Shown here piece by piece: positions 20,801 through 49,614 of a stretch of DNA of 64,000 nt (position 1 is its first letter; each line of letters starts with the position of its first letter). The notes below the pieces were generated by a model that was not told the origin of the DNA, did not search any database, and worked only from the letters and a program-made list of their open reading frames with translations. The translations under genes were made by a program, and so were the position numbers. Origin of the DNA: Aureococcus anophagefferens (Eukaryota > Sar > Pelagophyceae > Pelagomonadales > Pelagomonadaceae); NCBI RefSeq assembly GCF_000186865.1, contig NW_008705576.1, positions 350,478-414,477 of the forward strand. Reading direction: 5' to 3'.

Positions 20801-22913
20801 CCGGAGTACGCTTCGGCGATCGGCACGCCGCAGTCGTCGGTCCAGGTCACCTGCGACCCGAACGCGACGACGGACCGGCGCCGGCTCGACGACCACGCGC
20901 TGGTCCACTTCGTCATCGACGCGGCGCTCTTCGCGGAGCACTTCGTGAACCGGAGCGCGGGCGAGTCGACGCGCGACGCGGGCGCCAAGGTCGCCGCGCG
21001 CGTCGCGGACGCCGTGCGCAACGGCACGCTGCGCCAGGCTGTGTGGAAATCAAATCTTCAGCCCACTTCAATGTGCGCGTATTCGAAAGCTTTGACACGA
21101 AAACTTTCGCTGTGCTTCGAGAACTCGATGAGAGCAATCGATCGGTCCAAAAGTCAGCCGAATAGACTTCGATTTGACCGAGCTCGAGAATTTCAAAGTT
21201 TGGTCGGGACGTCCCAAACCAGCGGCTGATTTCCACGCAGGCGCCAGGCCGTCAAGATCCGCATCTACGAGGCCGCGGGCCTCGCGCCGACGGCGGCGCC
21301 GACGGCCGAGCCCTGCGAGGACGGCCTCGACGCGGCGACGTGCGCGGGCTTCGTCGCCGTGAGCCCCGGCACCTGCGAGACGTCGCTCGTCGGCGTCTGC
21401 GACTGGACCTGCGGCCGCTGCGAGCCGCCGACGGCGCCGCCGACGTCGTGCTACGACGCGGTGGGGCCCGAGCTCTGCGCGACGTACGCGGCGGAGCACC
21501 CGGACGCGTGCGGCGCCAGCCTCGCGGGCGTCTGCGACCGCACCTGCGGGGTGTGCGACGACGGCGCGGCGGCGCGGCGCGCCCTGGTTTCGGAAGATCG
21601 ACGACGCCTCGCGACGACGACGACGACCAACGCGAGCGACCTGCTGCTCGACTACGTGGACCGCGGCGTCGACAAGAAGATCGCCTTCGTGCTCATCACG
21701 GAGACGCTCGAACCCTCGGCCACGCCCTCGCTGCCGCCCACGCCGCTCAACAGCACCCCGCCGACCGCCGCCCCCGTCGTGCCCGGCGACGACGACGCGC
21801 AGACCCTGCTCGAGTGGGCGCTCACGCCTCTGGGCGTCGCGGCGCTCGTCTTCGCGGCGCTCGCGGCGGGCTGCGTGGAACTCAAATCCTCAACCCGACT
21901 TCAATGTGCGCGTATCGAACGGTTTGGACCAGGCTCTTCCGAGAGCAATGGATTCGTCCAAAAATCAGCCGAATCGACGTCGATTTGACCGAGCTCGAGA
22001 GTTCTGAAGTTTGGTGGGGACCCCCCAAAACCAGCGCTTGATTTCCACACAGGCCGCGGGCCTCGCCGTCGGCGGCGGCGCGTCGCTGGGCTTCGGCCTC
22101 TGGAACGCGGCGAAGGAGCGCGCGTCCCTGGGGCGCCTCGACCCCGTCGTCAACGTCGTCCACGCGACGCCGCGACGGCGGGACCGCGAGGCCGCGGTGC
22201 CCGCGCCGCTGCCCGCGTGGAAGCGGCGCCTCTTTCCCAACTTGTCGCCGCGCGTGTCGCCCCGGACGTCGCCGCCGGGCGGCCAGACCGTCGAGGTGCA
22301 GCCGCGGACGCCGCCGCCCCGCGGGTCGCCGCGGACGCCGCCGCGGCGCCAGTCGTCCGCGGAGATCTCCGACGCGGAGGCGGGCACGCCGCCGCCGCGG
22401 CCCTCGAAGGTCTTCCCGGAGGCGGCGGCCCACCGGCCCCCCGGGTCCGCGCGCGTCGTGCCCGAGTTGCCCGAGGACCGGCGCCGCGGCGGCCCGGGCG
22501 CGCGGCTGCCCCGGCGGCCGCACAAGGGGCCGTCCGCGCTCATGCACGACGACGACCTCCGGAAGCACCCGCTCCCGAAGGTCCTCGTCGCGAAGCGCCA
22601 CCCGAAGAGCGACGACGACGAGCGGCCGCCGGAGTACGCGGGGCCGCCGCGCCGCGCGCGGCGCCGCGAGCCGCCGCCGCGCCCGGAGACCGAGAGCGAC
22701 GACGACGACCGGCGGCCCGAGTACCGCCGGCACCGGCGCCGGCGCGACTCGGACGACGACTATGACAGCGACCGCCGGCCGCGGCGCGGCAGCCGCCGGC
22801 CGCGGCGCGACGGCACCAGCGACAGCGACGACGACGACGACCGGCCCGCGTACCGCCGCGAACGGCGCCGGAGGAGCCGCCGCGACAGCGACAGCGACGC
22901 CAACGGGCTCTGA
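8879..22913 (+). CDS. Giant type I surface protein: five FG-GAP/VCBS propellers on Ser/Pro stalks
   Basis: Signal peptide MRVAGLWLALAAAAAAAA, then five propeller modules and five Ser/Thr/Pro tracts (listed separately). The C-terminal part has two ShK-like six-Cys motifs (21310-21560), a membrane helix (LGVAALVFAALAAG) and a basic/acidic tail. Inferred exons: 8879-16279, 16373-16607, 16645-17194, 17250-20681, 20755-21042, 21241-21874, 22053-22913. Phases agree at each join, and the 17194/17250 join restores the Cys closing module 5 (WIES-R-C). The 16608-16644 intron is only 37 nt and least certain. Introner elements form the last two introns. Within 8879-16279 the frame is broken near 11621, 11864, 13050 and 13339 and by a gap. 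Propellers with DxDxDG-type loops bind calcium in integrin-alpha-like proteins; adhesion or cell-covering is inferred. Confidence 0.75.
8972..10023 (+). repeat. Propeller module 1 (seven FG-GAP/VCBS blades)
   Basis: Starts at CSHMAF and ends at WYVSEC. Seven blades, each with a DVDGDxDxD calcium loop followed by W-[HY]-E-N-D-G. Intact frame. The flanking cysteines could close the propeller by a disulfide; that is inference. Confidence 0.85.
10035..11091 (+). repeat. Ser/Thr/Pro tract 1
   Basis: A four-residue period (x-P-[ST]-[SAGT]) for about 350 codons. The DNA is nearly the same as tracts 2 and 3, showing recent duplication. Such tracts are usually extended and O-glycosylated. Confidence 0.85.
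11091..12130 (+). repeat. Propeller module 2, frame-damaged copy
   Basis: Seven blades recognisable from CLHMGY to WHASEC. Compared with module 4 it has one extra T near 11621 and a 26-bp loss near 11864 in blade 5, with the short repeat GTC at the break. The frame moves twice. Confidence 0.8.
12143..13075 (+). repeat. Ser/Thr/Pro tract 2
   Basis: Near-copy of tract 1 and tract 3. It is read in a different frame from module 1 because of the module 2 lesions. One extra base near 13050 (CCTACAGATCG against CCTACGATCG in tract 1) returns the frame to that of module 1. Confidence 0.8.
13075..13780 (+). repeat. Propeller module 3, collapsed by assembly gap
   Basis: Blade 1 and blades 5-7 are present; blades 2-4 fall in the N gap. 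Compared with module 4, the gap stands for about 404 bp rather than 50. One base is missing near 13339 (GTCTCGAGTGG). Confidence 0.8.
13277..13326. other. Assembly gap (50 N) inside module 3
   Basis: 50-N placeholder. Alignment with module 4 (14923-15326) predicts about 404 missing bases coding blades 2-4. Confidence 0.95.
13788..14727 (+). repeat. Ser/Thr/Pro tract 3
   Basis: Third near-identical tract. Landmark GACGCTTCCC occurs at 10321, 12306 and 13954 in tracts 1-3. Same four-residue period. Confidence 0.85.
14727..15780 (+). repeat. Propeller module 4 (intact seven blades)
   Basis: CAHMAY to WHASEC, all seven blades in frame. Used here as the reference copy for modules 2 and 3, to which its DNA is very close. 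Confidence 0.85.
15787..16005 (+). repeat. Ser/Thr/Pro tract 4 (short)
   Basis: About 70 residues of x-P-[ST] repeats, shorter and different in DNA from tracts 1-3. Confidence 0.8.
16005..17194 (+). repeat. Propeller module 5, split by introns
   Basis: CAHMVF through seven blades. Blade 2 is split by the intron at 16280-16372 and the blade 3/4 boundary by a possible intron at 16608-16644. The closing Cys comes from the next exon. Confidence 0.75.
16280..16372 (+). other. Intron with GC-AG ends
   Basis: Joining 16279 to 16373 gives ADAL-ANTVAWYEN, which restores the blade sequence. The donor reads G|GCGAGT, the usual form of GC donors; no GT donor keeps the frame. The acceptor is CTCTTAG. 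Confidence 0.7.
17195..17249 (+). other. Intron with GT-AG ends and long T tract
   Basis: GTGAGG donor, T-rich body and TTCGTAG acceptor. The in-frame TGA directly after WIE lies inside the donor. Splicing restores the conserved closing cysteine and links module 5 to the long Ser/Pro stalk. Confidence 0.8.
17265..20560 (+). repeat. Ser/Thr/Pro tract 5 (long stalk, ~1,100 residues)
   Basis: An uninterrupted x-P-[ST]-[SAGT] series in one frame, ending at PAPTRNEITVRL. More diverged internally than tracts 1-3. It would form a very long, probably O-glycosylated stalk between the propellers and the membrane-proximal region. Confidence 0.85.
21039..21240 (+). mobile_element. Introner element 1 (family A), acts as intron 21043-21240
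   Basis: 202 bp with inverted ends CTGTGTGGAAATC / GATTTCCACGCAG. 8-bp target duplication GCGCCAGG at 21031-21038 and 21241-21248. Splicing CTGT|GTGG to CAG| gives ...RQAV-RQAVKI, in frame. The body carries the 18-base core shared with other copies (TCAGCCGA part near 21160). Confidence 0.92.
21871..22052 (+). mobile_element. Introner element 2 (family A), intron 21875-22052
   Basis: 182 bp, ends CTGCGTGGAACTC / GATTTCCACACAG. Target duplication GCGGCGGG / GCCGCGGG with one mismatch. Splicing CTGC|GTGG to CAG| gives ...LAAGC-AAGLAV in frame, inside the membrane helix. Same orientation as element 1. Confidence 0.9.
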
Positions 22914-23162
22914 GAGAGAGCCCGCCACCACCACCATCTTCCTGTGTAATGTGTTTTGTATCATCCGGCTCGTTTTTGCCACTCGCCCTTGGAGGGCGTC
23001 GTTTTGCCACACGGCACACCGAGGCCAAGTTGGCAGGCATCGCAGACCGCAACGAGCCGTGCGAGCAGCGATCTGCAAAAAGCGACAAAAGGAAGAAGCT
23101 GGTAGAGCGCGGCCCTCGAAGAGAGAAGCGAACGCGGGACGGCCAAACATCGACTAAGAAAC

Positions 23163-24020
23163 ATGTCCGCATCCTCCATCAAGCAGCTCGTCGTCGACCT
23201 CCAAAAGGCTTCGGCGCCGACGACGATCAACGACATCCTGAAAGCGCTGACGGCGGCCAAGGTCACGGTGGCCATGCTCCACGAGTTCAAGTGCGGCGCC
23301 GTCGTGTCGAAGCTGCGCAAGCACGAGGACGCCGGCGTGTCGGCGTCGGCCAAGGCCCTCATCAAGAAGTGGAAGGAGCTCGCGGCGGCCGCCGGCGTGC
23401 CGTCGACGCCGCGCGCCTCCGGCTCGAGCCCGCGCGAGGGCCAGGCGTCGTCGACCGCCGAGACCGCGGCGGGCTTCGAGGTCGCGGACCTCGGCGATGC
23501 CGTGCGCCAGAGCTCGCGGAAGAAGCTCCTCGAGGTGCTCTCCGAGGGCGGCGCGCCCGCGGGCGCCGCGCGCGCGGCCGAGGCCGTCGAGCGCGAGATG
23601 CACGGGCGCTGGGCGAACCTCGCCGACGCCAACGTGAAGCGCGACTACGTCGCGAAGCTGCGCCAGCTCAGCTTCAACCTCAAGAAGAACCCGGACCTCC
23701 GCGCGCGCGTCGCCGGCGGCGGCGTCACGCCCGCGGAGCTCTGCTCCATGTCCGTCGACGAGCTCGCGACGCAGGAGGTCCAGGCCGAGCGCAAGAAGAT
23801 GGCCGAGTTCCAGCACGACGCCCGCTCCCTCGACTGGGACAAGAAGAACCGCGACCGCGTCGACGCGTCCATCGGCATCGACAACAAGAAGACCATGTAC
23901 CCCTGCGGCAAGTGCAAGTCGACGAAGGTCTCCAACTACGAGAAGCAGACGCGCTCCGGCGACGAGCCCATGACCCAGTTCTTCGAGTGCGCCGACTGCG
24001 GCAACCGGTGGCGCTTCTAA
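23163..24020 (+). CDS. TFIIS: Transcription elongation factor TFIIS
   Basis: 285 residues, no intron, start in AAGAAACATG. Residues ~1-80 form the helical TFIIS N-terminal (LW) domain ending KALIKKWKEL. A linker is followed by the central polymerase-binding domain (~115-235) with REKMHGRW-like and KKNPDLR helices. The C-terminal zinc ribbon has CGKC and CADC pairs around RSGDEPMTQFFEC; the Asp-Glu of this loop enters the RNA polymerase II active site to stimulate RNA cleavage and rescue arrested enzyme. Full length for the family. Acts in the nucleus. Confidence 0.95.
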   Translation: MSASSIKQLVVDLQKASAPTTINDILKALTAAKVTVAMLHEFKCGAVVSKLRKHEDAGVSASAKALIKKWKELAAAAGVPSTPRASGSSPREGQASSTAETAAGFEVADLGDAVRQSSRKKLLEVLSEGGAPAGAARAAEAVEREMHGRWANLADANVKRDYVAKLRQLSFNLKKNPDLRARVAGGGVTPAELCSMSVDELATQEVQAERKKMAEFQHDARSLDWDKKNRDRVDASIGIDNKKTMYPCGKCKSTKVSNYEKQTRSGDEPMTQFFECADCGNRWRF

Positions 24021-24543
24021 GCCCCGCGGGCGAGCCTAACACGGAGCGCGGTTCGTTTCGTCCGTCGGCGGCGGCGGGCCTGACTACGGCCGAGGGGCTT
24101 CGAAGCGCCTATAGGAGCACCGGTGGGATTCGACGGCGCTTCAACTTAACAGGTTAACATATCCCGCCGGCGGGACATGTTAAACGCCTCTTCAACTTGG
24201 ACTTCACCGTGAAACCTTGTACTTCAACAGGGACCTCAACACATCCGCTTGCCCTTCAAAAGGGACCTCAACACCGCCGCTCACGCCTCGCCGGGGACCT
24301 CTGACGCGCCGCCCACGCCTTAGAGGGCGCGACCCGCCCCATGCCACGTGCAAGCCCTCCTCAATAGCTCAATCACTTATGCGCACCGGAATTGCGACAA
24401 GCGTGCAAAAAAATGCGCTTTCACGCCGTCGACATCGGGCGCATGCTCGTCCTACGACGGGCTGCGGCCGAGCATCACTGCCCACCCCCCCCCCCCCCCG
24501 ACGTACCCCCCGATTCCCCCCGTAAGCTCCGTCTCGCCCGCCG
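24021..24543. other. Intergenic with short degenerate repeats and a C run
   Basis: Convergent 3' flanks of TFIIS and a membrane protein gene. Contains a 30-bp palindrome (separate entry), several copies of a degenerate GGGACCTCAAC-like unit at 24230-24300, and a C run near 24487-24500. No coding frame is supported. Confidence 0.55.
24154..24183. repeat. 30-bp near-perfect palindrome
   Basis: TTAACATATCCCGCC on the left mirrors the right half with one A/G difference and no spacer. It could form a hairpin in the 3' flank of TFIIS. The left part TAACATATCC also occurs at 6711 and near 38595, beside other gene ends. Confidence 0.7.
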
Positions 24544-25422
24544 CTACCAGGCGTAGGTCCCCGAGAGGAGCGCGGCGAAGGGGATCGTCGTCGCCGAGGC
24601 GCCGAAGATGACGAGGGAGTCGAGGACCCAGAGGTTGATGACCCAGAAGAAGAAGAAGAGGAGGCCCACGTCCGCGGCGAAGTACGCGGCGAACGTCGCG
24701 GCCGTCGACGCCCACGTCGCGTCCGGCGCGGCGGCGTGGGGCGTCGCGACGACGTTGACGTAGGCGACGAGGATGAGCGCGATGCAGAGGGTCGCCCAGT
24801 TGAAGACGGCCGTCACGCGGTTCGCGACGGCGTGCTCGTCGCTCCAGCCGTCGTCGGCGATGGTGATCTCGCCGCGGCTCGTCTTCGTCTGCATCTCGCG
24901 CGCGACCGCAAAGGCCGCGGCCGCGTAGCCGACCTCGAGGACGCGGTAGACGAGGCGGTGCGCGCCGAGGGTCGAGGGCGCCATGCGCTCCGCGGCCTCC
25001 GCGAGGCCCGCCGCGACGTCGCGGAGCGCGGCGGCGCCTCGAGCGTGGTCGACGCGCTCGGCCCGCGTCGAGTAGATCTGGTCCCCGGGGAGGTCGTGGC
25101 AGATCGCGCGGTCCATCGCGATGATGAAGAGCAGGGAGAGCGAGTTCATGAAGATGTTGATGGGTCCGTCGGCGAGGCCGATGAGCTGCGACGCCGTCTG
25201 GAAGAAGTCGACGGCGAGCGAGAGCCGCGAGAGGACGAGGACGTAGGCCATCGCCCAGCGCGGCGCGAAGGCCCAGCTGGTGGTGGTGGTGGCGGCGGCG
25301 GCGGCGCCTCGGCGCGACGGGACGTATCGAAGGACGCAGGTCCCGAGCGCGACCTCCCTGACCTCCTCCATGACACTTGGAGGTCCACGAGACGCAGTCG
25401 CGGTGCGCCGATTCGTCATCAT
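24544..25422 (-). CDS. Multi-pass membrane protein, family not recognised
   Basis: 292 residues in one frame. About six hydrophobic helices: AMAYVLVLSRLSLAV, FMNSLSLLFIIAM, TAVFNWATLCIALILVAYV, FAAYFAADVGLLFFFFWVINLW and VIFGASATTIPFAALL, plus a weaker one near residue 165. The N-terminus is polar with an Ala/Thr run. A charged loop after helix 2 carries RAERVDHARG. No signal peptide, no transporter signature. Divergent from the FMN reductase gene, 239 bases away. The start could be the Met at VMEEVREV. Function unknown. Confidence 0.6.
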   Translation of the reverse strand: MMTNRRTATASRGPPSVMEEVREVALGTCVLRYVPSRRGAAAAATTTTSWAFAPRWAMAYVLVLSRLSLAVDFFQTASQLIGLADGPINIFMNSLSLLFIIAMDRAICHDLPGDQIYSTRAERVDHARGAAALRDVAAGLAEAAERMAPSTLGAHRLVYRVLEVGYAAAAFAVAREMQTKTSRGEITIADDGWSDEHAVANRVTAVFNWATLCIALILVAYVNVVATPHAAAPDATWASTAATFAAYFAADVGLLFFFFWVINLWVLDSLVIFGASATTIPFAALLSGTYAW

Positions 25423-25661
25423 CTGAGTCGATTCTTTGGCGGCCCATCGACCGTGGCAGTAGTGCTGTTCAATAATTTATTTCCACGGCATTAATTAATA
25501 GTACTTTTCCTGACTCAAAGGTTGAGTCAACTCCGGCGACTTCAATCTGAGATAAATTGACTTCAATTTGAACCCAAGGAAAGCGGCGGCGCTTGCAGGC
25601 CGCGCAGCACTGCACTGCCGCACCCACAACCATCGTTGCTCACGCGCGCCGCGAAGCAGCA

Positions 25662-26336: not shown

Positions 26337-26532
26337 GGAAGACGCTCGATGTCGGTAAAGTTGGGCCCACGTGACGCGCCAGGGCGCGTCGACCGCGCCA
26401 GGGCGGCGGCGCGTCGACCGCGCCGGGTTTGATGATAGCGTCCCACCGTAGGAAGCGGCGCGGCTCATGAACACGCACGCCAAAGCGCGCCGGCGACCGC
26501 GGGCGGCTCAAACGTCCCATGAACCCACACAC

Positions 26533-27528: not shown

Positions 27529-27678
27529 GGTTCTCCGACGCAGCCGCCGCAGACGAGGAGAGAGCGCCGAGCTGCCACAGACTTCCACAGCTCGCCGAGA
27601 ACGCAGGCTGCTGTGCACTGCCTGGATACGGCCTTTCGAACCAGCCAATCAGAGGCTGCCCACGCTGAGCGACACACG

Positions 27679-28666: not shown

Positions 28667-28696
28667 AAAGGTTCGCTGACATCCTAAAATAGAGTG

Positions 28697-30673
28697 TTAC
28701 GAGAAGAAGCGCGCGCCCGAGGACACGTTGTAGCCCGCGGGCCGGAAGTCGTAGCCCAACGCCGCGCAGTGCTCGTAGGCGAAGTTGTCGTACATGTAGG
28801 GCAGCGCGTCGTTCTCCGGCGCGCTGAACTCGTAGAAGTCGAGGTTCGTGTAGGGGTCCGGCTCGCCCGCGGCTCCCGTGAAGTTGCCGAAGGGCAGGTC
28901 GTCGTCGACGCCGTGGCCCGGGCACGTGCCCCTGACGCAGACGGGCATGGCGTCGTCGGCGTCGACGGCGGACCAGTCGCACACGAGGCCCGTGTCGCTC
29001 GGCGGCGTGATGAACGTCGTCCCTCCCGCCATGTTGTGCTCGTAGCGCCAGTCCTGCACGAAGGTCTTGGAGCCCGTCGTCGCCAGGAGCCGCCGGTAGT
29101 GGACGAGGCGCTCCGCCGTCGTGTGGATGGGCCAGAAGAGCGGGTCCGCGGGCGCCGCGGACGTGAACATGTCGCCGACGTTCTGCGGGTCGCAGAGCGC
29201 CCTGACGACGGTGCGCCAGACGTCGGCCTCCTGGCGCTCCGACATGTCCTTGACGCGCCATTTGCCGTCGGCGTAGTAGAACTGGGGCTTGAGCGCCTGG
29301 GCGAGCCAGTGCGTGAGGTCCGTCTCGTTCGTGAGGAACGCGTAGGCGTCAAAGTCCGCGGCGTCGACGTCGACGCCGCACTTGCATCGGCAGTCCGCCT
29401 CCGTGACGCCCTCCTTGGACGACGCGCAGGTCGACGGCGCGGGCGAGCGCACGTAGCCCTTGCGCCAGAGCCACTTGGAGAAGAGGAGCACGTCGGACGG
29501 GAACGTGATCGTCTCCGCCCAGAAGGCGTCGACCCAGGACGTCGCGTTCGTGGACCACTGGCCGCCGACCATGATGTGCACGGGCCCGTGGGCGGCGCCG
29601 TTCATGATCTGGAGCACCTCCGCGAGCGTCGGCGACGTGAAGGCGCGGTGCCAGACGTCGCAGCCCGGGAAGTTCGCGAACGACGGCTTCCCGAACAACT
29701 CCTTGGACCGAGTGACAAAGGGGTCGCTGATCGAGTTCCAGGGGCTCCGCAGGAGGCCGTAGGCGTTCGTGCACCTTTCGTCCGTCGGGTCCGGCGAGGT
29801 CGGCACGGCCGTGTAGGCCCAGCGGCCCGACGTGACGTAGTGCTGCGAGCTCAGATTCGTCATCGCGCCGAACCACCGCCGCGTGAAGATCTCCGACTGG
29901 TCCCACCACATGGACCCCGGCGTCGCGTCGATGGTCGCGGCGTCGACCGTGTAGTCCCAGTAGGGCACGGCGACGCGGGCGTCGATGGCCTGGAGCGACT
30001 GCTCCAATTCCAACGTAAACGCGACGTGGTGGTTCAGGATGCCCGCGTCGTCGTGCCAGTGGTCGCAGGACCGGTCCGCGGCGCCGTAGAGGTGTTTTTT
30101 CACGAGGTACGTCGACGACCGGAATTTCGACCCGTAGCGGCGCTTGCCGTCGGCGTCGGACGCGTGGTAGACGACGTGCAACGCGCCTAAAAAGCCCTCG
30201 CGGTCCGCGTCGCCCAGGGCCCGGATCTCCCGCCGCACGTACTTGACCATGACCGTGAAGTCGTGGCTGTCGCCGCCGGCGCCGACGCGCACGCCGTGGC
30301 GGCCCGTGCGCGAGAAGGTGTGCAGCGCGCGCGTCGCGTCGGATCCCCCGTTCGGTCGCTCGCCCTCGACGGCCCAGGCCGTCGCGGCGGCGCCGTCGAG
30401 CTCGAGCACCGTCGCGCGGTGCGGCTCGGCGACGTGGGGCCAGGGGTAGAGCGAGTCCGCGCCGACGTAGTCGGACCGGTCCTCGCGCCGCACGGCCAGC
30501 GTCGGCGGCGCCGCGGCGCTGGGCGGCGCCGCGGCGAACCAGCGCGCGACGACGTCGTCGACGTCGAAGACGCTCGCGGCGACGAGGATGGCCAGGCCCA
30601 GGACCGGCGCCACCCAGGCCGCGGCCCGCCGGCCGGCGCTCCCGGGGAGCCGCTCGTAGGGGCTGCCCATCAT
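28697..30673 (-). CDS. Membrane-anchored tyrosinase-like copper oxidase
   Basis: 658 residues. A hydrophobic segment near residues 22-40 (AAAWVAPVLGLAILVAAS) is a signal anchor, putting the enzyme in the lumen or outside. The tyrosinase core has CuA ligands in HDDAGILNHHVAFTLELE and CuB ligands in AHGPVHIMVGGQW plus DPLFWPIHTTAERL. Tyrosinases oxidise phenols to quinones using a coupled dicopper site; catechol oxidase or a hemocyanin-like role is also possible. A Cys-rich insert (CASSKEGVTEADCRCKCG) lies between the two copper regions. Start chosen at MMGSPYERL; the frame extends 40 codons upstream without similarity. Confidence 0.85.
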   Translation of the reverse strand: MMGSPYERLPGSAGRRAAAWVAPVLGLAILVAASVFDVDDVVARWFAAAPPSAAAPPTLAVRREDRSDYVGADSLYPWPHVAEPHRATVLELDGAAATAWAVEGERPNGGSDATRALHTFSRTGRHGVRVGAGGDSHDFTVMVKYVRREIRALGDADREGFLGALHVVYHASDADGKRRYGSKFRSSTYLVKKHLYGAADRSCDHWHDDAGILNHHVAFTLELEQSLQAIDARVAVPYWDYTVDAATIDATPGSMWWDQSEIFTRRWFGAMTNLSSQHYVTSGRWAYTAVPTSPDPTDERCTNAYGLLRSPWNSISDPFVTRSKELFGKPSFANFPGCDVWHRAFTSPTLAEVLQIMNGAAHGPVHIMVGGQWSTNATSWVDAFWAETITFPSDVLLFSKWLWRKGYVRSPAPSTCASSKEGVTEADCRCKCGVDVDAADFDAYAFLTNETDLTHWLAQALKPQFYYADGKWRVKDMSERQEADVWRTVVRALCDPQNVGDMFTSAAPADPLFWPIHTTAERLVHYRRLLATTGSKTFVQDWRYEHNMAGGTTFITPPSDTGLVCDWSAVDADDAMPVCVRGTCPGHGVDDDLPFGNFTGAAGEPDPYTNLDFYEFSAPENDALPYMYDNFAYEHCAALGYDFRPAGYNVSSGARFFS

Positions 30674-30709
30674 CCAATTAAATCCAATCGCTTCAGATAT
30701 AAGGTTGAC

Positions 30710-30863
30710 GATGCACTTTAGGTCAGACGTCGCCCTCTTACGCGTAGTCGTCGTAGTCGCCGTAGCCGCCGCCGTCGTAGCCGAACGATGCACTTAAGGT
30801 CAGACGTCGCCCTCTTACGCGTAGTCGTCGTAGTCGTCGTAGCCGCCGCCGTCGTAGCCGCCC
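30710..30863. repeat. 77-bp tandem duplication at the 3' end of the MFS gene
   Basis: Copies 30710-30786 and 30787-30863 begin GATGCACTT and include the MFS stop codon and the last YDD-rich codons (in the minus-strand gene). Only a few bases differ. The outer copy is an orphan gene tail. Confidence 0.85.
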
Positions 30864-34029: not shown

Positions 34030-35845
34030 ATGCCCGTGGACTACAGCAACTGGGACGCCTTCGAGGACAGCGACGCCAGCGACAGCGAGGACGAGCCCAT
34101 GACCGAGGCGGAGATCCGCGCCGAGAGCGACCGCGTCGCCCGCGAGTCCGTCGAGGCCAACGAGATGCTCAAGCTGCGCTACCCGAACGGCACGGACGAC
34201 GACGTCGAGTTCCCGCCGAAGCACCTCGACGAGGAGACGCGGAAGAAGCTCATGGAGATGCAGCCCGGCGGCGAGAAGGTGCTGCAGGCCGCGCGCGACT
34301 TCAAGAAGAAGCTCAAGGCGGACCGCGAGGCGGGCAACGACCCGCGCACGGCCGCCGAGCGCTTCGCCCGGCAGGAGCCGCCCCGGGCGCAGACGCAGCC
34401 CGCGACCTGGGCGGAGCGCGTCGCGTCGGCGACGGAGACCAAGGCGCACGCGAATTCCATGTTCACGGAGGGCACCGCGGGCGAGGCGCTGCCCGGCTAC
34501 CTCGCGGCGATCTGGCTCCTCAAGGCGGGCGCGACGCCCTACCCGGCGGCGCTCCGCAAGGCGTCGGGCCTGCTCAAGCCGAACCCGCCGCGCGGCGCGG
34601 CCGCGGCGGCGCTCCTCGGCGACGGCGCCGACGACGAGCCCGTCGTCGAGGAGGTGCCCGCGGAGGCGCCATTGGTCGAGGAGGTGGAGCGAGACGGCGG
34701 TCCGGACGAAGACGGCGCGCCGACGCCGCCGGCTGTGTGGAATTCAACCACTGGTTTGGGTGGTCCTGACCAAACTTGAGAATTCTCTAGCTCGGTCAAA
34801 TCGAAGTCGATTCGGCTGATTTTTGGACGAATCGATTGCTCTCGTCGAGTTCTCGAAGCACAGCAGAAAATCTTGCGTCTAAACTGTCGCGTACGCTCAC
34901 ATTGAAGTCGGGTTGAAGATTTGAATTCCACACAGGCCGCCGGCGAACCCCGACCTCGAGTGGGACTCGGACGAGGAGTCGAGCGTCGCGGGCGACGTCG
35001 AGCGGCCGCCCTTCGAGCCCGCGCCCGCCGTGGGGCCGCCCGACGCCGCGGCCCTGCGGCTGAGCCTCCACCTGAACGTCGCGCTGGCGGCGCTGAAGCT
35101 CGAGGACTACGCGCTCGCCGAGGCGGCCTGCGGGTACGTCCTGGACCGCGACGAGGGCCACGTCAAGGCGACGTACCGCCTGGCCATGGCCTGCGAGGGC
35201 CAGGGCCGCTTCAAGCGCGCGCTCAAGCTCCTGACGCGCGTCTGCAAGCGGGACCCAAAGAACGCGGACGCGCGCGACGCGCGGAAGAAGGTCAAGGCGC
35301 GCCTCGAGGACCTCCGCTGGCAGTACGGCGACTGGCTCGAGACGGAGAACAAGAAGCTCTACAAGGACCAGAAGGACTGGCAGCCGCCGCCGACCTACGA
35401 GGGCAAGGTCATCCCGCCCCAGGGCCTCTACAAGCGCACGTACTACCTGCACCCGCTCGCGAAGCGCGTCCTCGTGCTGACGGGCCTGGCGACGGTGTCC
35501 CTCGTCTGCTACGCCTGCTGGGGCACGCTCGGCCCCTTCGTCGCGTCCCTGCGCGCCGGCGCGCGGCCCTGGGCGGCCGCGCGGCTCCGCGAGCTCCGCG
35601 CGCTCGCGCCCGTCGCGGCGGCCGCCGCGAAGCGCGGCGTCCTGGCCCTCTTCGACGCGGGCACGTGGACGCGAAAGGCCCTCGCGTCCGGCGCGTCGTC
35701 CGCGGCGCGGTCCTTCGCCGGCGCCGCCGTCGAGGGCGCGCGCGCGGCCGCGCGCGGCGCCGCGGCGGCCGTCCGCGGCCTCGGCGCGTTCCTCTTCAGC
35801 CGCCCGGGCTATCGCAAGAAGGCGCGGCGCGCGGCGTCGTCGTAA
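34030..35845 (+). CDS. TPR protein with C-terminal membrane helix
   Basis: 538 residues from exons 34030-34736 and 34936-35845, joined across introner element 3. The N-terminal half is acidic and low in structure (DAFEDSDASDSEDEP). A helical stretch (TKAHANSMFTEGTAGEALPGYLAAIWLLKAG) reads as the first TPR. The second exon has two to three clear TPRs (LSLHLNVALAALKLEDYALA; VKATYRLAMACEGQGRFKRA). One membrane helix (VLVLTGLATVSLVCYACW) follows, then an Ala/Arg-rich amphipathic tail. The layout resembles FKBP/AIP-type or tail-region-anchored chaperone adaptors, without the catalytic domain. Phases (707 + 910 nt) agree with splicing. Confidence 0.82.
34733..34935 (+). mobile_element. Introner element 3 (family A, inverted), intron 34737-34935
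   Basis: 203 bp, ends CTGTGTGGAATTC / GAATTCCACACAG, perfect target duplication GCCGCCGG at 34725-34732 and 34936-34943. Body is reversed relative to elements 1, 2 and 4 with respect to the host transcript. Splicing gives ...PPAV-PPANPD in frame. Confidence 0.93.
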
Positions 35846-40153: not shown

Positions 40154-40157
40154 ACGC

Positions 40158-40339
40158 TTGCGCTTTTTTTGTTTGTTTCATGACGCCAACATAAAGTCCA
40201 AAGTCCACTGTTGAACATATGCGCTTTTTACAGGGCTGCACTGCAAGGCCCACAAGATTGCGCTTTTTTTATTTGTTTCATGACGCCAACACTGGCATCC
40301 GCTTTAACGCGGCATCTTGCACTGCAAGGCCCACAAGAT
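40158..40339. repeat. Interleaved direct repeats between genes
   Basis: A CGC-T7-rich unit with TTTGTTTCATGACGCCAAC occurs at about 40158 and 40258. A second unit, TGCACTGCAAGGCCCACAAG, occurs at 40237 and 40318. The two families overlap in a 290-base intergenic stretch. Confidence 0.75.
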
Positions 40340-40441
40340 GCAGCCGCGCCGAGGTGGCATCAGCTCGACCACCGCAGAGGCCGCCGTCGACGCCTAGCGC
40401 CGCCGCCAGGAGCGCCTCCAGGCCGAGAACCGCAGAGCGCC

Positions 40442-41461: not shown

Positions 41462-44400
41462 TAGTACGTCGTCGGCGCCCGGGGCGGCATGGCCGTGTTG
41501 TCGAAGCGGCGGAAGTACGCGTCGAAGAAGACGACGTTCTTGGGCTGGAGGCTCGGGATGAGCGGCGGGCCCTCGTCCTCGTCGTAGGCGCCGTTGAGGA
41601 ATTTCGCCCGGTGCTCGTGGAAGTACCACCAGAGCGGCGCCGTCGCCGCGTGGATCTTCTTGCGGTCGCGCTTGACGAAGCAGTTGTCGAGGAACGTGCC
41701 GTAGCGGCACGCGAAGAGCTGGTCCAGCAGCGCCACGAGCAGGTCCGCCGTGAACTCGAAGCGCGCCGGGAACTGGTGGAGCAGCTGGACCATGGCGTCG
41801 GCGAAGAGCAGGAACACGGGCGACCGCTGGTCCTCGCCGCTCTCGTCCGTGTGGCCGCACCGCTCGTCGAACTTGTGCCCGAAATCGGCCCACTCCTTCT
41901 GCACCAGCGCCAGAAAGCCGTCCATGGTCCGGAACCGCGCCTCGAGCATGACCATGGCCAGCACGGTGATCTGGGGCGTGCGGTCCCAGCCGTCGGAGCA
42001 GTGCACGAGCACGGCGCACCGCTCGTAGTGCACGAGGTCGACGGTCTTCGCCGCGGACGCGAGGATCGCGTGGACCATGCTCAGCCACTTCGTCCCCTCG
42101 AGCTTCCCGAGCCAGGTCGCGCCGCCGTCGTAGGCGGTGTTGCCGCCGGAGCCGTCGCGGCAGAGCGCCTGGAGCGAACTGAGCGCGTCGCGCGCGGCGT
42201 GGATGTTCGCGATGTTGCCGTAGAACAGTTCCACGTTCTCGTAGTAGCGCGCGAGCTCCGTGCCGCCGCCCATGACCCGGTTGCCCTGGGCGGCGACCTT
42301 GGACCGCGCGTCGACGATGACCATGCGCTTGCCGTGGCACAATCGCCGGAGCTCGTCCAAGTAGCGCTCGTCGTCCGCGGACCGCTTGTTCTGCACGCCC
42401 GGCTTGGGCTGCGCGGACCGCGAGATCGTCGCGCCGTTGGTCGGGTCCGGGTGGGCCCAGACGACGGCGGGGAGCCGCCCCTTGGAGCGGTACGCGGCGA
42501 CGCGGCGGAGCTCGAGGTCCGACATCGACGCCGGGACCACCAGATCCGGCGGGTACGTGTCGCAGAGCGCCAGGTTGTTCTCGCCCTGGGTCACGAGGCG
42601 CAGACCCCGCCGCGGGTACTCGGCGATCACGTAGGGCCGTAGCACGTAGTCGACGTACTCGGTCACGAGCGTGTACGCGTGCATGCGCGGGAGCCGCGAA
42701 TTTCCGGGAAACTCCGCGCCCTCCGTCTCCGGCGCCTCCTCGTCGCTGTCGTCGCCCCAGGCGTTGTTCGTTCCCGCGGCGCGCACGCCGGCGAAGTGGG
42801 CCTTGGCGAAGGCGTCGGGGGCCTTGGAGAAGGCCAGCGCGTGCACCGCGCGCGCGACGCGCAGCGCGTCGCCGCCGAGGCGCTCCGCGACGGAGAACTT
42901 GCGCCGCTGGCCGTCCTTGCACGCAAAAGCCAGCGTGCTCGCGGCCCCCGGCAGCTGGCCGAGGTCGCAGCGCAGGAGCGCGCGACAGGGCATCTCCCAG
43001 TCGTCCGAGTCTTTTCGCGCGAACGACGGCCGGACGCCGACGCCGATGGGGTGGAAGACGACGCGGTAGGACGTCGCGTAGAGCTCGCCGGAGAGCGTCA
43101 TGCCCGACAGCGCGCCCGACCGCCGCGGGTCGTCGACGACCCAGTCCTGGTAGGAGCACGCGCACTTGCCGAAGACGACCTCGCCCGCGAGCAGCGGCAG
43201 CTCGTAGCCGTCGGCGGCCACGGGCGACGCCGGCAGCGGGTCGAGGCGCGCGGGCGCGCCGCCGGGCAGGTCGCCGTGGTGCGGCGGCGCCGGGTGGCCG
43301 CCCGCGACGGACGACACCGCGTCGCGCGCGGACGGGAACCTGTGTGGAATTCAACCGCTGGTTTGGGTGGTCCTGACCAAACTTCAGAATTCTCTAGCTC
43401 GGTCACATCGAAGTCGATTCGGCTGATTTTTGGACGAATCGATTGATCTCGTCGAGTTCTCGAAGCACAGCCAAAGAGTACGGCGCAATCAGTTCGATTA
43501 CGCGCACATTGAAGTCGGGTTGAAGATTTGATTTCCACACGGACGGGAACGGCTCGACGGCGGACGCGACGGCGGACACGAACTGCGACAGGTTGCTCTG
43601 CGACTTGGGCTTGGGTCCGCCGCCCGGGGGCGCATTGTTGGCCGCGGGCGGCGGCGGCGGCGCGTTGGCCCCGGCGGCGGCCGCGCGCTTCGCGCGGTCC
43701 TCCGCGGCGTCGGCCGCGAGCTCGTGCGCCGACGCGTTGCGGAAGGCGACGAGCACGGGCCGCCCGACGGCCTTGAGGATCGTCACGGCGTCCGCGAGCG
43801 TCGCGCCGCGCGGCAGCGCCCGCCCGTTGACGGCGAGGAGCGTGTCGCCCACGCGCGGCTTCGGCGCCGCGACACGCTCCGCCGACGAAAAGTTCGAGAT
43901 GACGAGCCCCCGGGCCTTCCGCGTGAGGAGGATGCCCAGCGGGCCCGGCCCGAAGGACACGACGTCGACGCCGACCTCCGCGGCGGCGCAGTGCGGGTCC
44001 AGCACGTGGGCCGCGAGCTCCACCAAGTTGCGCTCGCCGCGGACGCACGACGCCTCCAATATCGCCGCGTACAACCGCCGCATGTCCGCGTCGTCGTCGA
44101 TCTGGAACGCGAGGAGCGGCGCCCGGCAGCGCACGAGCAGCACGCAGAGCGCCGCGGCGGCCATGCCCTCGGGCCGCTCCTCCTCGAGGAGCGCGCGCCA
44201 GACGCCCGCGGCGTCCGACTCTGGAAGCGCCGAAGCGAACAGCGAGTCGAAGAACGCGGCGCGCAGCACGCCCCGGTCCACGGCGCCGACGGCGCCGACG
44301 AGCTCGGGGTCGACGCGCGGGAGCAGCTCGCCGAGGCACCGGTCGAAGAGCCCGTCCTGGCCGCCCGCGAGGCCCTGGAGCCGCCGCGTCGCGGACCGGA

Positions 44401-45171
44401 GCATCGCCTGGGCAGGACAAGAGAGATTCAACGTCGCTTCAACGTGAGTGTTCCGCGCGCGCGCGTTCCGGGGAAAGCATTCACGCTTCGAGACCGTTCC
44501 AAGAGATGATCGCTCGTCCAAAAATCAGCCGAAACGAGTGGAAAACGGCCGAGAAAGGAGCCTTTGAAGTTGGGAATTTCGCTCTCTTGTCCTGCCCGGA
44601 GCATCGCCAGCGCCTGGCTCTCGCAGCTCGGCCGCCCCGCCTCCAGCGCCCGGCGCGCCGCGGACCCCGGCGGCGCCGCGAGGCACAGGGCCAGCGCGGC
44701 GACGGCCAGCGCGTCCTCGAAGCCGTCGGCGTCGTACGCGCCCGCGACGGCGCGCGCGGCCGCGCGGCCGCCCGCGGTGCCCGCGAGCGCGCCGAGCGCG
44801 CTGCCGGGCCGCGCGCCGTCGAAGCGCGCGGCGCTCTCGTCGTCCTCGCCGCAGGGCACGACGTCGACGAGGTCCGCGCCCGCGACGCCCAGCAGGTCGA
44901 GCCACTGCGTCGCGAGCGCGTCGGGCGCCGGCGCGGCGGCCGGCGGCGCCGCCGGCGGCGGCGCCGCGGCGGCCGGGGCGGCCTCGTCGTCGGAGCTGTC
45001 GCCCATGAGCCGCGTCCCGCCGCCCAGCGCCTTGCGCAGCATCGTGTCCGGGCTCTCGACGCGCGGCGGCGGGGGCGGCGGCGTGCGCTTGGCCGACGGC
45101 GGCAGCGGCGGCGGCGGCGTCCGCACCTGGAACAGCGGGTCCGGGTCGTCCTCGAGGCTGATGTCCTCCAT
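41458..45171 (-). CDS. PDZ-myotubularin phosphoinositide 3-phosphatase
   Basis: 1,108 residues from exons 45171-44596, 44407-43539 and 43339-41458, joined across introner elements 5 and 4. The Pro-rich N-terminus is followed by helical repeats, a TBC-like stretch (LPESDAAGVWRALLEEE), a PDZ domain (FGPGPLGILLTRKARG, GDTLLAVNGRALP), a PH-GRAM region (SGELYATSYRVVF) and a myotubularin phosphatase. The active site HCSDGWDR (~928-935) keeps the CX5R loop with Asp, so catalysis is expected: removal of the 3-phosphate from PI3P and PI(3,5)P2 on endosomal membranes. PDZ on myotubularin is unusual, as PDZ-binding tails are more common. Divergent from the gene at 45348. Confidence 0.9.
43340..43542 (-). 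mobile_element. Introner element 4 (family A), intron 43538-43340 of the minus-strand gene
   Basis: 203 bp. Read on the host strand it begins CCGTGTGGAAATC (CTGT changed to CCGT) and ends GAATTCCACACAG. Target duplication GTTCCCGT on both sides. Splicing after CCGT gives ...FPSV-FPSARD in frame. Closely similar to element 3 but in the other orientation relative to transcription. Confidence 0.92.
44408..44599 (-). mobile_element. Introner element 5 (family B), intron 44595-44408 with GC donor
   Basis: 192 bp. On the host strand it begins CCGGGCAGGACAAGAGAG and ends CTCTCTTGTCCTGCCCAG. Target duplication GCGATGCT on both sides. The only frame-keeping splice is CCGG|GCAGGA to CCCAG|, a GC-AG intron, giving ...AMLR-AMLRSA. 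Confidence 0.9.
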
Positions 45172-45347
45172 GGTGTTTTTCCTTGCTGTGGCGGCGCCGA
45201 CGGGCGCGTCGCCGGCACGGGCGCTGCTGCGGCGCGACGGCGACGTGCGTCTCGCAGAGCCTCACGATTCGCGTCTTGCCGCAGAGAGCGGTGCGTCCGA
45301 CGCCAGTGGCACCGCCGCGCCGGCGCGCACCGAGCGCCGCGTCGACG

Positions 45348-46958
45348 ATGTCGGAGCTGCTCCGCCGGCACACGTCGACGCGCATGGTGGCGACGACGCT
45401 GGACAGCCTCGAGCGCACGTCGCGCGACGCGGCGCAGGCCGCGGAGAAGGCTCTGGACGCCGTCATCGAGGAGGCCGGCGCGCTCACCTTCTTCGGCCTG
45501 ACGCAGGTGTCGGACAGCGCCGCGCGCAAGTTCGTCGAGTTCGGGCTGTGGACGCGCGGCCACGGCGGCTTCCCGGCGACGTTCGGCCGCAAGGTCGTCG
45601 TCTACGGGGCTTTGGGAGCGCTCGGCGCGTCGCTGCTGTATCGCCTCGGCGCCGTCGACGGCGCGCTGCGGCGATTGGCCGAGCGCGCGTGCAGCGACGC
45701 CCTGGGCACGCGGGTGACGATCCGGTCCCTGTGCTGCGCGCTGGCGCGCGGCGAGGTCACGGTCCGCGGGCTCCGGGTCGACGCGTGGCCGCGCGGCGAC
45801 GACGACGCGGCGCCGCCGCCGGGCCCCGCGCTGAGCGTCGGGTCGTTCACGGTCGGCTGGAGCTCGTCGCTGGTCGCGCGCGCCTTCCGGCGGCGCGACG
45901 AGGCCGCGGCGCCGTTCCGTCTGGACGCGCTCGAGGTCGAGGCCGTCGACCTGCGCCTGCACCGCGAGGCCGACGGCGCGCTGAACTGGGCGTCGGCCCA
46001 CGCGGCCGTGCGCGCGCGGCGCGCGTCGTCCCACGTGCTCGAGCTCCACACGACGTCGAGCTCCGAGGAGACGTCCGACGACGACGCGCCGCCCGTGTCG
46101 CGGTTCCTGCTTCCTTTGGAGGACTCGTCGTCCGAGGGCGAGCCGAGCGACGCGGAGACGAAGAGCCCGCGGCCCGGCGCCTACGGCGCGCGCTGGTGGC
46201 GCAAGCGCGACGTCGACCGCATCGCCCAGGCCTGCGGCGCGTCCTACGCGGCGACGAAGAAGGCGTTGGAGCGCACGGCGCGCCGCGTCGCGCCGCCCGA
46301 CGGCGCGGTCCGCGAGGCGACGCGCGCGCTGCGCCGCGCCAAGGCCCGGGCCGTGGCCCGGGCCGACGCCTTCGAGCGCTGGGCCTGCGACCACGCCAAG
46401 GACGTGCTCCGCCACGTCGTCGTGAATCTGGCGCACAACCTGTCCGCGAGGGCGCACCACCCCGTGCCCCGGGCGGCGCCCGCGTCCGACGACGACGAGC
46501 CGCCGCCGGCCGCCGACGCGGCGCCGGAGCCGGACCGCGCGCTCTTCGTCGTCGGGTCCATCGGCGTGCGCGACTTCACGCTCGAGCTCTACGACTGCCC
46601 CGTGACGCTGGACCGGTGCTTCGTCGGCGAGGCGGACCTCGTCCTGGACGACGCGATCCTCGAGCAGTACGGCGCGCGGCCGCGGGGCGACTGCCGCGCG
46701 TTCACGGCGCCGGAGATCGGCCTCGCCTTCGCGGAGAAGCTCATCGAGACGCTGCTCGTGGACCACCCGACGCTCGCGCTGAACCTCGCGGCGGCCCTGA
46801 GCCGGGACCTCGTCGCGCGGAAGTCGAACGCGTCCCGGCCGCTCAAGCGGCGCTTCCTCGCGCACCGCCGCGCGGCGAAGAAGCGCAAGAAGCGCGAGGC
46901 CGCGGACGCCGGCGGGGACGCGCCCAAGGGGTGGCTCGCCTGGCTGCGGGGCGCCTAG
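45348..46958 (+). CDS. AsmA/bridge-like protein N-terminal-type domain
   Basis: 536 residues. An amphipathic N-terminus is followed by a hydrophobic segment (VVVYGALGALGASLLYRLG) and then LAERACSDALGTRVTIRSLCCALARGEVTVRGLRVDAWP. That is the pattern that opens AsmA/TamB and bridge-like lipid-transfer proteins, where a membrane anchor precedes the first repeat of a beta-groove. Acidic Ser/Asp/Glu linkers and basic helices follow, with a second beta-rich segment (FVVGSIGVRDFTLELYDCPV). A lipid-handling role is inferred and weak. The start could be the upstream in-frame codon but MSELLRRH fits best. Confidence 0.55.
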   Translation: MSELLRRHTSTRMVATTLDSLERTSRDAAQAAEKALDAVIEEAGALTFFGLTQVSDSAARKFVEFGLWTRGHGGFPATFGRKVVVYGALGALGASLLYRLGAVDGALRRLAERACSDALGTRVTIRSLCCALARGEVTVRGLRVDAWPRGDDDAAPPPGPALSVGSFTVGWSSSLVARAFRRRDEAAAPFRLDALEVEAVDLRLHREADGALNWASAHAAVRARRASSHVLELHTTSSSEETSDDDAPPVSRFLLPLEDSSSEGEPSDAETKSPRPGAYGARWWRKRDVDRIAQACGASYAATKKALERTARRVAPPDGAVREATRALRRAKARAVARADAFERWACDHAKDVLRHVVVNLAHNLSARAHHPVPRAAPASDDDEPPPAADAAPEPDRALFVVGSIGVRDFTLELYDCPVTLDRCFVGEADLVLDDAILEQYGARPRGDCRAFTAPEIGLAFAEKLIETLLVDHPTLALNLAAALSRDLVARKSNASRPLKRRFLAHRRAAKKRKKREAADAGGDAPKGWLAWLRGA

Positions 46959-47011
46959 GCCGCCGGTGCTAACGCGCTCTTACGCGGGGCGTCCTCCGCG
47001 CCGCCTCCCGT

Positions 47012-47929
47012 CTAGCAGGTCCCGCGCTCGGGCTCGACGAAGACGAGGTCGCCCCGCTTCGTGCGGCCGTGGTCGACGTAGGCCGCGCGGTGGGAGCTCT
47101 CCCACTCGCCCATGCCGTGGTCGCCGGAGGGCCCGCCGTGGATGCCCGGGTCGGGCCGCACGGTGACGGCCACCTTCTCGACGTACTCGTCGGCGTACTC
47201 CGTGGCGCGCCAGGGCGCGCCGGGCAGCTTGTCCGGGAAGTCGCAGCCCCAGCTGCCGCGCTTGGGCTCGTCGACCTTGGGCCCAAGGAAGTGCGCGGCG
47301 TACGTCGACCGGTACTCCTGCGTCCACGGCCGCGGGATCTCGCGGACGTCCTCGCCGGGGTGGGGCTTGGCGTTCCGGGGGTGGGCGACGTAGTCGCACT
47401 CGTAGGTCGTCTTGCCCGTGAGGCAGCCGTCGGGCGCGCGGTCGGGGACCTCGGAGGGCAGCGCGTCGCGCGGCGGCAGCGCCTTCGGCGTGAAGTGCGA
47501 CCGGTACGTCGTGCGGTAGCACCAGGCGCTCATGTCCGGCAGGGGCTCGCCCTCGAGCTCCAAATCGCCCGCCGGGCCCCGGGGGGCGCGCGCGGGGTGC
47601 GCGACGTAGTCGCGCCGGTAGACCGTCAACCCGTCGAAGATGGAGCCGAGCTCCTTCAGCGAGAGCCGGCGCCCGGCGGGGTCCACGAGGATGATGACGT
47701 CGCGGTCGCGGACGATGCCGTACTGGGCCTCGTTCGTGATGCGCACGTTCGGCGACGACGCCGGGATGTGCCCGTCGGCGCCGGAGTCGAGGTACATCTC
47801 GCAGTAGCAGCCCATGGCCTGGTGGCAGCGCCGCTGGAGCTCGCCGAACGTCGCCGGCAGGGCCATGGCCTCGCGCCGCGCCGCGTCGCCGTAGACCATC
47901 TTCGGGACCTTCCCGTGCATCGACGACAT
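47012..47929 (-). CDS. Tyr-repeat protein with PB1-like N-terminus, unrecognised
   Basis: 305 residues. The first ~100 residues contain ATFGELQRRC and VRDRDVIILVDPAG, which look like a small ubiquitin/PB1-type fold. The rest has about six units with spaced aromatic residues: YRRDYVAHP, YRTTYRSHF, YECDYVAHP, YRSTYAAHF, YADEYVEK and HRAAYVDH. Such Y-x-x-x-[YF]-x-x-H units resemble those of microtubule-associated SAXO/MN-repeat proteins; that link is an inference. Start MSSMHGKVPKM. Divergent from the U-box gene. Confidence 0.55.
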   Translation of the reverse strand: MSSMHGKVPKMVYGDAARREAMALPATFGELQRRCHQAMGCYCEMYLDSGADGHIPASSPNVRITNEAQYGIVRDRDVIILVDPAGRRLSLKELGSIFDGLTVYRRDYVAHPARAPRGPAGDLELEGEPLPDMSAWCYRTTYRSHFTPKALPPRDALPSEVPDRAPDGCLTGKTTYECDYVAHPRNAKPHPGEDVREIPRPWTQEYRSTYAAHFLGPKVDEPKRGSWGCDFPDKLPGAPWRATEYADEYVEKVAVTVRPDPGIHGGPSGDHGMGEWESSHRAAYVDHGRTKRGDLVFVEPERGTC

Positions 47930-48083
47930 GGCGGACGACGACGATAGGCCGTGCCGTGCCCCGCAATGATGAAACGGCGCTGCGCTGCCGAGGCACATTG
48001 AGGTTCATATATTCCGCGACGGTGCTGCCACAAAACATCGGGGTCAAGCCGCTACGCGCGCCGCGCCGCAGCGGCGGGAGACC

Positions 48084-49614
48084 ATGCCGTACGACTCGGG
48101 ATCGCCGCCACCGTCGGCGGGCGCCGACGAGGGGGGACGCGTCGTCCAGCTCCAGCAGGGCCAGGCGCGCTCCGCAGCGCCGCGCGACCGCGCGACCGCC
48201 GCAGCGATGGCACCCCCCGCGCGCAGGAGCTCCGCGACGAGTTCACGTGCCCGATCACGCGGCAGCTCATGCGCGCGCGTCGCCCGGCGCCCGCGGCGCG
48301 CGCGCGCGGCTGGCCGCGAGCGACCGCGCGACTTCCGCAGGTGCCGGTCATCGCCGCGGACGGCCACACCTACGACCGGTCGGCCATCGAGCGCTGGCTG
48401 CTCCACCACGACAACTCGCCCAAGACCGGCGAGCGCCTCGAGCACCGCATGCTCGTGCCGAACCACAACCTAAAAAGACTCGTCGACGACCTCGTCCTCG
48501 AGGGCGGCGCGGGCCTGTACAGCTCCGCGGAGGGCGGCGCGACGCCCTCGTGCGACGCGCGCGAGGAGCGCAAGACCTTCGAGACGGCCGACGACGGCAT
48601 GCCGAGGCCGCCGTCGAGCGCCGGGCGGCCCGGCGGCCGCCGCGCGGAGCTCGCGTCCGAGCCCGTGTTGCTGCTCCAGTGCCTCGGGCCGCCCGCAGGG
48701 CAGCAAAAGAGAGCGAAATTCCCAACTTCAAAGGCTCATATCTCGGCCATTTTCCACTCGTTTTGGCTAATTCTTGGACGAGCGATCATCTCTCGGAACG
48801 GTCTCGAAGCGTGGATGCTTTTTCCGGAACGCGCGCGCGCGGAACACTCACGTTGAAGCGACGTTGAATCACCCTTTTGCTGCCCAGGCCGCCCGAGTCC
48901 GAGTGGAACGGCCGGTCCTTCGAGGTGTCGAAGAACGGCGTCGTCGGCGGCCGTAGGAGGCCGTCGGCGAGCGGCGGCGCGCCCGACGACGGCGGCGGCA
49001 TCGGCGACCGCGACTTCATGCCGTTCGCCGACTCGACGGTGTCGCGGCGCCACTTCGAGATCGGCCACGACGGCGGCCGCTTCGCCGTGCGCGACCTGGG
49101 CTCGGCGTCGGGCACGTTCCGGCGGCTCCGCAACGGCGCCGAGGCGCCCCTCACGCTCGGCGCCATGGCCATGATCGGCAAGCACCAGCTCTGCGTCGTC
49201 TCCGACTCCGCCGGCGCCGCCGGCGCCGGCGAGGCCGCGCTCGGCCTCGAGTGCTTCGCGCCCGACGGGAGCCCGCTCCAGGGCAAGATCTTCAAGATCA
49301 CGGACAAGGGCGCGACGCTCGGGCGGCGGACGACCAACGCCGTGGCCTTCTCCCACGTCGTCGACGGCGAGGCCGTCGGCGTCGACAGCTCCGTCTCCGC
49401 CGAGCACGCGCGCGTCGTCTTCGCCGGCGGCGGCTTCCGCCTCGCGGACGGCACGTCCGCGGGCAAGTCGTCGACGAACGGCACCTGGATCCGCCTGAGC
49501 GGGCTCCACGAGAAGAGCGACCGCTGCGACCTCGAGAGCGGCGACGAGCTCCTCATCGGGACGATCCGCTTCCACGTCACGGCGACGCACACCGTCGTCG
49601 AGCGGCCCCTCTAA
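48084..49614 (+). CDS. U-box protein with two FHA domains (putative E3 ligase)
   Basis: The U-box starts ELRDEFTCPITRQLM, is split by a probable GC-AG intron (48275-48340) and continues VPVIAADGHTYDRSAIERWL to LVPNHNLKRLV. Exon 48341-48699 joins 48888-49614 across introner element 6. Two FHA-type beta sandwiches follow: one with STVSRRHFEI and DLGSASGTF, one with GATLGRRTTNAV, SAEHARVVF and SSTNGTWIRLS. FHA domains bind phosphothreonine, so the protein may ubiquitinate phosphorylated targets. The N-terminus is uncertain: ATG 48084 needs one more base in the C run near 48210 or another intron to reach the U-box frame. Confidence 0.78.
48696..48887 (+). mobile_element. Introner element 6 (family B), intron 48700-48887 with GC donor
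   Basis: 192 bp, begins CAGGGCAGCAAAAGAGAG and ends CACCCTTTTGCTGCCCAG. Perfect target duplication GCCGCCCG at 48688-48695 and 48888-48895. Splicing CAGG|GCAGCA to CCCAG| gives ...GPPAG-PPESEW in frame. Body closely similar to element 5 in the same orientation. Confidence 0.92.

Follow-up and report, generated by a model that had tools for sequence, protein, structure and literature searches.

The window examined here, a 64,000-nucleotide stretch of the Aureococcus anophagefferens genome (C16:350478–414477 of a 49.05-Mb, 86-contig assembly), holds six introners at a density of ~1 per 10 kb (Table 1). Copies 1 and 2 lie in one plus-strand frame and copies 4 and 5 in one minus-strand frame with a myotubularin domain; compared with A. 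anophagefferens proteins, two of the window proteins reach local identities of 94% (P0005) and 90% (P0011). At the lowest coordinate of each element in Table 1, a preliminary description made from the letters of the window had placed an introner element of the Aureococcus kind; an element was found at every one of these positions, and the identification is supported.

All six elements, 182–203 bp long, have terminal inverted repeats and are flanked by an 8-bp target-site duplication (TSD). The duplication had been described for all six copies, and this stands, except that the match is exact in only five of them, copy 2 having one mismatch (GCGGCGGG/GCCGCGGG). Copies 1–4 (182–203 bp) belong to a family, F1, with ends of the type CTGTGTGGAA...TTCCACACAG, and copies 5 and 6 (192 bp) to a family, F2, whose ends in transcript orientation are of the type CAGGGCAG...CTGCCCAG. 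Read in that orientation, every copy ends in CAG, where the end of the intron had indeed been put, and element bases 5–6 are GT or GC in every copy. These are real introners of a known kind, most likely with a known mechanism.

Table 1. Introners of the window and one empty target. For introners, the location is that of the intron predicted when splicing adds 0 nt (+0), from the first base of the upstream TSD copy (TSD1) to the end of the element.
Feature	Location	Strand	TSD1	Element	TSD2	Remarks
Introner 1 (F1)	21031..21240	+	21031-21038, GCGCCAGG	21039-21240	21241-21248	Predicted donor GC at 21031
Introner 2 (F1)	21863..22052	+	21863-21870, GCGGCGGG	21871-22052	22053-22060, GCCGCGGG, one mismatch	
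Introner 3 (F1)	34725..34935	+	34725-34732, GCCGCCGG	34733-34935	34936-34943	TPR-domain gene
Introner 4 (F1)	43340..43550	-	43543-43550, transcript sense GTTCCCGT	43340-43542	43332-43339	Myotubularin-domain gene
Introner 5 (F2)	44408..44607	-	44600-44607, transcript sense GCGATGCT	44408-44599	44400-44407	Myotubularin-domain gene that also hosts introner 4
Introner 6 (F2)	48688..48887	+	48688-48695, GCCGCCCG	48696-48887	48888-48895	U-box/FHA gene
Empty target GTGTCGCG	49039..49046	+				F2 introner at this target in another allele (protein P0017)

The preliminary description had drawn a 12-nt rule from these copies, by which the reading frame survives only with an intron that runs from element base 5 to the terminal CAG, so that 8 bp of duplication plus four element bases are retained and each insertion costs four codons without ever shifting the frame. 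The arithmetic is right: such a splice is frame-neutral in all six copies, an open frame crosses all six junctions, and the six predicted footprints (RQAV-RQAV, AAGC-AAG, PPAV-PPA, FPSV-FPS, AMLR-AMLR and PPAG-PP) are all obtained. The word ‘only’ does not hold, however, as an intron running from TSD base 1 (GC or GT) to the terminal CAG adds 0 nt and is equally frame-neutral in six out of six; hence the sequence does not impose a cost of four codons, and evidence from the whole genome, given below, opposes it. Other frame-neutral registers that begin with GC or GT (GY) occur at +3 in three copies, +6 in one and +15 in one, but the only ones common to all six are +0 and +12. Because 0 and 12 are both multiples of three and GY stands at both, frame cannot decide the donor. 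A coincidence of frame is the best reading of the 12-nt footprint, and the rule itself is already known, being in print for another Aureococcus genome (4 + 8 = 12 bp).

Copies for a wider comparison came from the window, a 200-kb contiguous sample and stretches round the places returned by three genome searches. A first look gave 1738, 2071 and 1674 candidates for the three queries, with 40 scored per query, and the places used were all 39 others from query 1, all 39 from query 2 and 29 of 39 from query 3. The 134 clusters found were reduced to 114 copies with clear ends. Twelve clusters had no boundary pair: seven were cut by a locus edge, one in the 200-kb sample (C1) was partial, and four were full-length copies without a matching TSD (L004, L057, L085 and L086), which were left out. 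Seven further copies with poor boundaries were removed, among them L088 and C1:44735, an older copy lacking CAG at its 3′ end, as was L083, whose boundary was offset. By eye, six of the uncounted copies (L004, L057, L083, L085, L086 and L088) have GC or GT 8 or 9 nt upstream of the element. Among the full-length copies without a matching TSD (L057, L085 and L086 around 251–453; L004 at 1501–1703), the flanks of L057 and L085/L086 look nearly inverted rather than direct. L085 and L086 represent almost the same site on two contigs, sharing 685 of 703 bases.

With the three genome queries, many similar short copies were found within genes. The downstream frame agrees with the +0 intron in 112 of the 114 copies, an agreement that holds for +12 too; against +0 stand one confident mismatch (L003) and one weak one (L005:140, an 80-bp F1 copy with altered ends). 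An exact pattern for F1 relatives of 80–88 bp found none. The copies are partly non-independent, the same junction peptide being present in L039 and L043, and the boundary choice gave a bonus to CAG or CTG ends, so that the terminal CAG of 114 out of 114 copies is partly selected. A generic scan for TSDs with inverted repeats gave 426 hits, mostly chance-like in this G+C-rich DNA, and was not used for any count.

The start of the TSD is strongly constrained. When the copies are turned to their inferred coding strand, TSD1 opens with G in all 114, followed by C or T in 113 and by A in the other, whereas the far TSD end, its last two bases read as the reverse complement, is GY in only 27; the background frequency of GY in upstream exon sequence is 0.204. 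F2 has unlike ends, and each could therefore be counted across the whole genome with an exact pattern. At exact F2 3′ ends, CAG is followed by GY in 437 cases, by GR in seven (six GA, one GG) and by a non-G base in none. At exact F2 5′ ends, GY stands at −8 in 401 of 419; the 18 others (five GR, 13 non-G) speak against +0.

Two of these 18 exceptions are the two ends of a single longer element (C1:618576–619054, L020) of 479 bp and 58% G+C, in which both ends are CAGGGCAGCAAAAGGGCGCGA and mirror-symmetric. It is without a terminal CAG acceptor, no 8-bp TSD was seen around it, and it has the F2 end but little else in common with F2, of which it is possibly a relative or ancestor type.

The ends of F1, on the other hand, are symmetric, and base-5 GT and the terminal CAG are therefore generally present on both strands. 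It follows that a +12 rule would be strand-blind and leave the TSD start free, whereas a donor in the TSD would require GY on the coding strand. To infer the coding strand, we scored codon usage in the flanks with a model whose training set was F2 copies, their orientation being taken from the CAG end. This model was correct for all 44 F2 copies in cross-validation, as against 15 to 27 when the labels were permuted (five trials), and for all four pieces of a tyrosinase-domain gene (Pfam); it replaced an earlier codon model, trained on long ORFs, that was poor at telling strands. Of the 70 F1 copies, the 17 in which both TSD ends are GY are uninformative. In all of the remaining 53, which have GY at only one TSD end, it lies on the coding strand. 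The opposite end of the element shows a constraint as well: the base adjoining the end is other than T in 17 of 70 F1 copies at the 5′ end and in none of the 70 at the 3′ end, and every one of the 70 F1 3′ ends retains the terminal CAG, a figure partly selected by the CAG/CTG bonus and by the removal of the older copy without CAG. The acceptor end thus has a polarity that matches that of GY.

It is very probable, in our judgement, that the six window copies are non-autonomous DNA transposons (introners) spliced from TSD base 1 to the terminal CAG with 0 nt added. Insertion would duplicate 8 bp of the gene; the element would bring the 3′ splice site, its terminal CAG, and the 5′ splice site would be gene-derived, namely the dinucleotide (GC or GT, rarely GA) with which the upstream TSD copy begins. 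The intron would then be TSD1 and the element together, so that a 203-bp F1 copy would yield 211 nt and a 192-bp F2 copy 200 nt. Removal of the intron would leave TSD2 alone, that is, the pre-insertion sequence with 0 nt added in any codon phase. The sequence constraints at the two ends suggest that one splice site is carried by the element and that the other comes from the TSD, and we infer that the spliceosome cuts at TSD base 1 in the six genes.

The reading behind the 12-nt rule puts both splice sites inside the element, the donor at base 5 and the acceptor at the terminal CAG, so that the TSD and 4 nt (four codons) would be kept. It accommodates the frame in the window and the GT or GC found at element bases 5–6 in all 114 copies, and a +12 case is in print for family 4 of an Aureococcus sp. 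(PMC9860276). It does not explain the GY at the TSD start or its coding-strand specificity, however, both of which a TSD-derived donor would predict and which point to the TSD rather than to element base 5. Moreover, the two ends of F1 conserve bases 5–6 to the same degree (68 GT and two GC at the 5′ end, n = 70; 69 T and one C at the mirror position), and so these bases give no sign of donor-side selection. The printed case comes from a study that began from annotated introns and excluded genus-level TARA genomes from its RNA-seq analysis. With introners lying within conserved protein motifs, and with no tetrapeptide at either introner site of P0010 (see below), we consider it very unlikely that the donor is at base 5.

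Alternatively, the GY at the TSD start might reflect a target preference of the transposase and be silent on splicing, which would suit a dinucleotide that is nearly universal in the copies examined. A preference at the DNA level is blind to the coding strand, however, and neither the 53 one-ended F1 copies nor the base changes adjoining the element, which are confined to the GY end, are what it would give; we regard it as very improbable, although a target preference could act beside a splicing filter. There is, finally, a small chance that both GYs matter, the one at base 5 serving as a fail-safe donor when the GY of the TSD fails. It lies 12 nt downstream and in frame and its use would leave a duplicated tetrapeptide, the published +12 case would be such a fallback, and the combined length of the TSD and the 4 nt would have been tuned to be divisible by three.

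Conserved proteins interrupted by introners bear on the same question. A +12 splice would add four residues, so introners should avoid conserved cores, yet some do not. One splits FNFE^GGCYAK of an ATP-dependent phosphoenolpyruvate carboxykinase (PEPCK; motif EGGCYAK), whose +0 product, aligned to solved PEPCK chains, shows no gap at the junction. Another lies within a Cys-loop (Pfam Neur_chan_LBD), a loop that is usually 13 residues long and has 13 here only without an insert, and a third lies in the myosin stretch LVEN^VRVRRAG. Four extra residues in such motifs should be harmful. Ten junctions were picked by eye, and at every one of them +0 gave the best Pfam family a higher score than +12 did, but two secondary families of fragment 5 (ResIII and DEAD) scored higher for +12; this comparison reflects the pre-insertion state and is by itself no proof of the product made. 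The same applies to orthologues. Alignment to orthologues that lack the element had been proposed as a check, and such orthologues do lack the tetrapeptides, but this is expected under +0 and +12 alike; homologues P0001 and P0004, which are without the tetrapeptide, were for this reason rejected as support for +0.

Two homologous proteins bear on the gene of introner 6. In P0017 (1,318-nt contig), an upstream intron is translated and an F2 introner has entered after STVSRR: 58 of 61 residues match the TSD GTGTCGCG plus the F2 element of L108, as against at most 21 in the other two frames, and this TSD starts with GT. The contig looks unspliced. P0017 is continuous across the site of introner 6, with no element there. 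P0010 (1,385-nt contig, cluster of 49) is without the upstream intron present in P0017, equals P0017 over 170 of 170 exonic residues, and has STVSRRHFEI and QCLGPPESEW, i.e. no insert and no tetrapeptide at either introner site. Its contig appears to be spliced and transcript-like, with a product exactly restored, although the transcript behind it may derive from an allele without the element. As the window has introner 6 and an empty target at 49039–49046, and P0017 the reverse, the elements look recent, and insertions probably differ between alleles. One gene model goes against +0: NCBI’s P0005 keeps 6 nt at site 4, which is neither +0 nor +12. This protein is also unlike other homologues just upstream of site 5, where the TSD donor is GC, and we read it as a poor witness for splice position.

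Donor strength is of limited help. Beyond GY, the TSD donors barely resemble the textbook consensus, which counts against +0. For F1, the mean number of consensus matches out of nine is 3.3 for the TSD donor and 2.2 for the base-5 donor; for F2, the two score alike (3.07 and 3.09), so donor strength gives no support for +0 in that family. A search for U1 snRNA (RF00003) gave no match here and none in controls either, and is uninformative. The phase of the F1 introns is 2 in 37 of 68, a departure from the exon GY supply (chi-square 12.0); that of F2 is 0 in 24 of 44, with a much smaller departure (chi-square 4.4).

An 8-bp TSD is a trait of the hAT superfamily of DNA transposons. The window elements share it, and the F2 5′ end starts CAGGG as in that superfamily, but the F2 3′ end is CCCAG and not the mirror CCCTG; a search for the hAT transposase domain (PF05699) found no match in the genome and none in control genomes, and is likewise uninformative. 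Huff, Zilberman and Roy are said to have described, in Nature 538:533 of 2016, transposons that carry one splice site and take the other from duplicated gene sequence, with perfect splicing. Their A. anophagefferens introners are, like those here, reportedly short non-autonomous DNA transposons in genes, with terminal inverted repeats, a TSD and one carried site, and no difference from that description was found. Splicing there reportedly restores the coding sequence exactly, as predicted for the introners here and as P0010 compared with P0017 would fit; insertion between nucleosomes is another trait reported for them. PMC9612004 and PMC10228655 partly restate the mechanism. According to PMC9481584, the characteristic introner length in A. 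anophagefferens is ~210 bp and the intron-length peak of Pelagomonas calceolata is near 210 bp; the commonest F1 length gives an intron of 211 nt under +0 and 199 nt under +12.

According to Gozashti et al. (2022; PMC9860276), most introner families leave mRNA length unchanged, and the legend of Fig. 2F has the Aureococcus sp. introners carry both splice sites and add 12 bp (four of introner, eight of TSD). As described there, family 4 of Aureococcus sp. TARA_AOS_82_MAG_00129 resembles the window families in its 8-bp TSD, its terminal 3′ splice site and the four element bases before a possible inner donor, hence the same 4 + 8 geometry. It differs in being described with both sites and +12 bp, whereas the evidence for the window families favours a TSD donor and 0 bp, and in its example intron of 77 bp, whereas most here would be 200–211. 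The introners of Symbiodinium microadriaticum (Fig. 2B of the same source) are alike in inverted repeats, TSD, a carried 3′ site and a 5′ site from the TSD, though their TSD is 4 bp and not 8 bp.

In families of this geometry a wrong donor can look right, since the 8 bp of the TSD and the 4 nt add up to a number divisible by three, and frame arithmetic misleads. Symmetric inverted repeats provide an RNA-free test of the donor position, namely whether the TSD constraint follows the coding strand, and this test could be used on further introner families whose ends are symmetric, the published +12 case among them.

The window has other repeated features. A large region at 8644–21162 is rich in repeats, and its long ORFs contain FG-GAP-like and PT repeats. 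Of two assembly gaps of 50 N each (1516–1565 and 13277–13326), the second lies within this region. Two tandem 76-nt copies, 97% alike and spaced at 77 nt, occupy 30708–30860, at the end of a minus-strand ORF with a tyrosinase domain (28700–30793).
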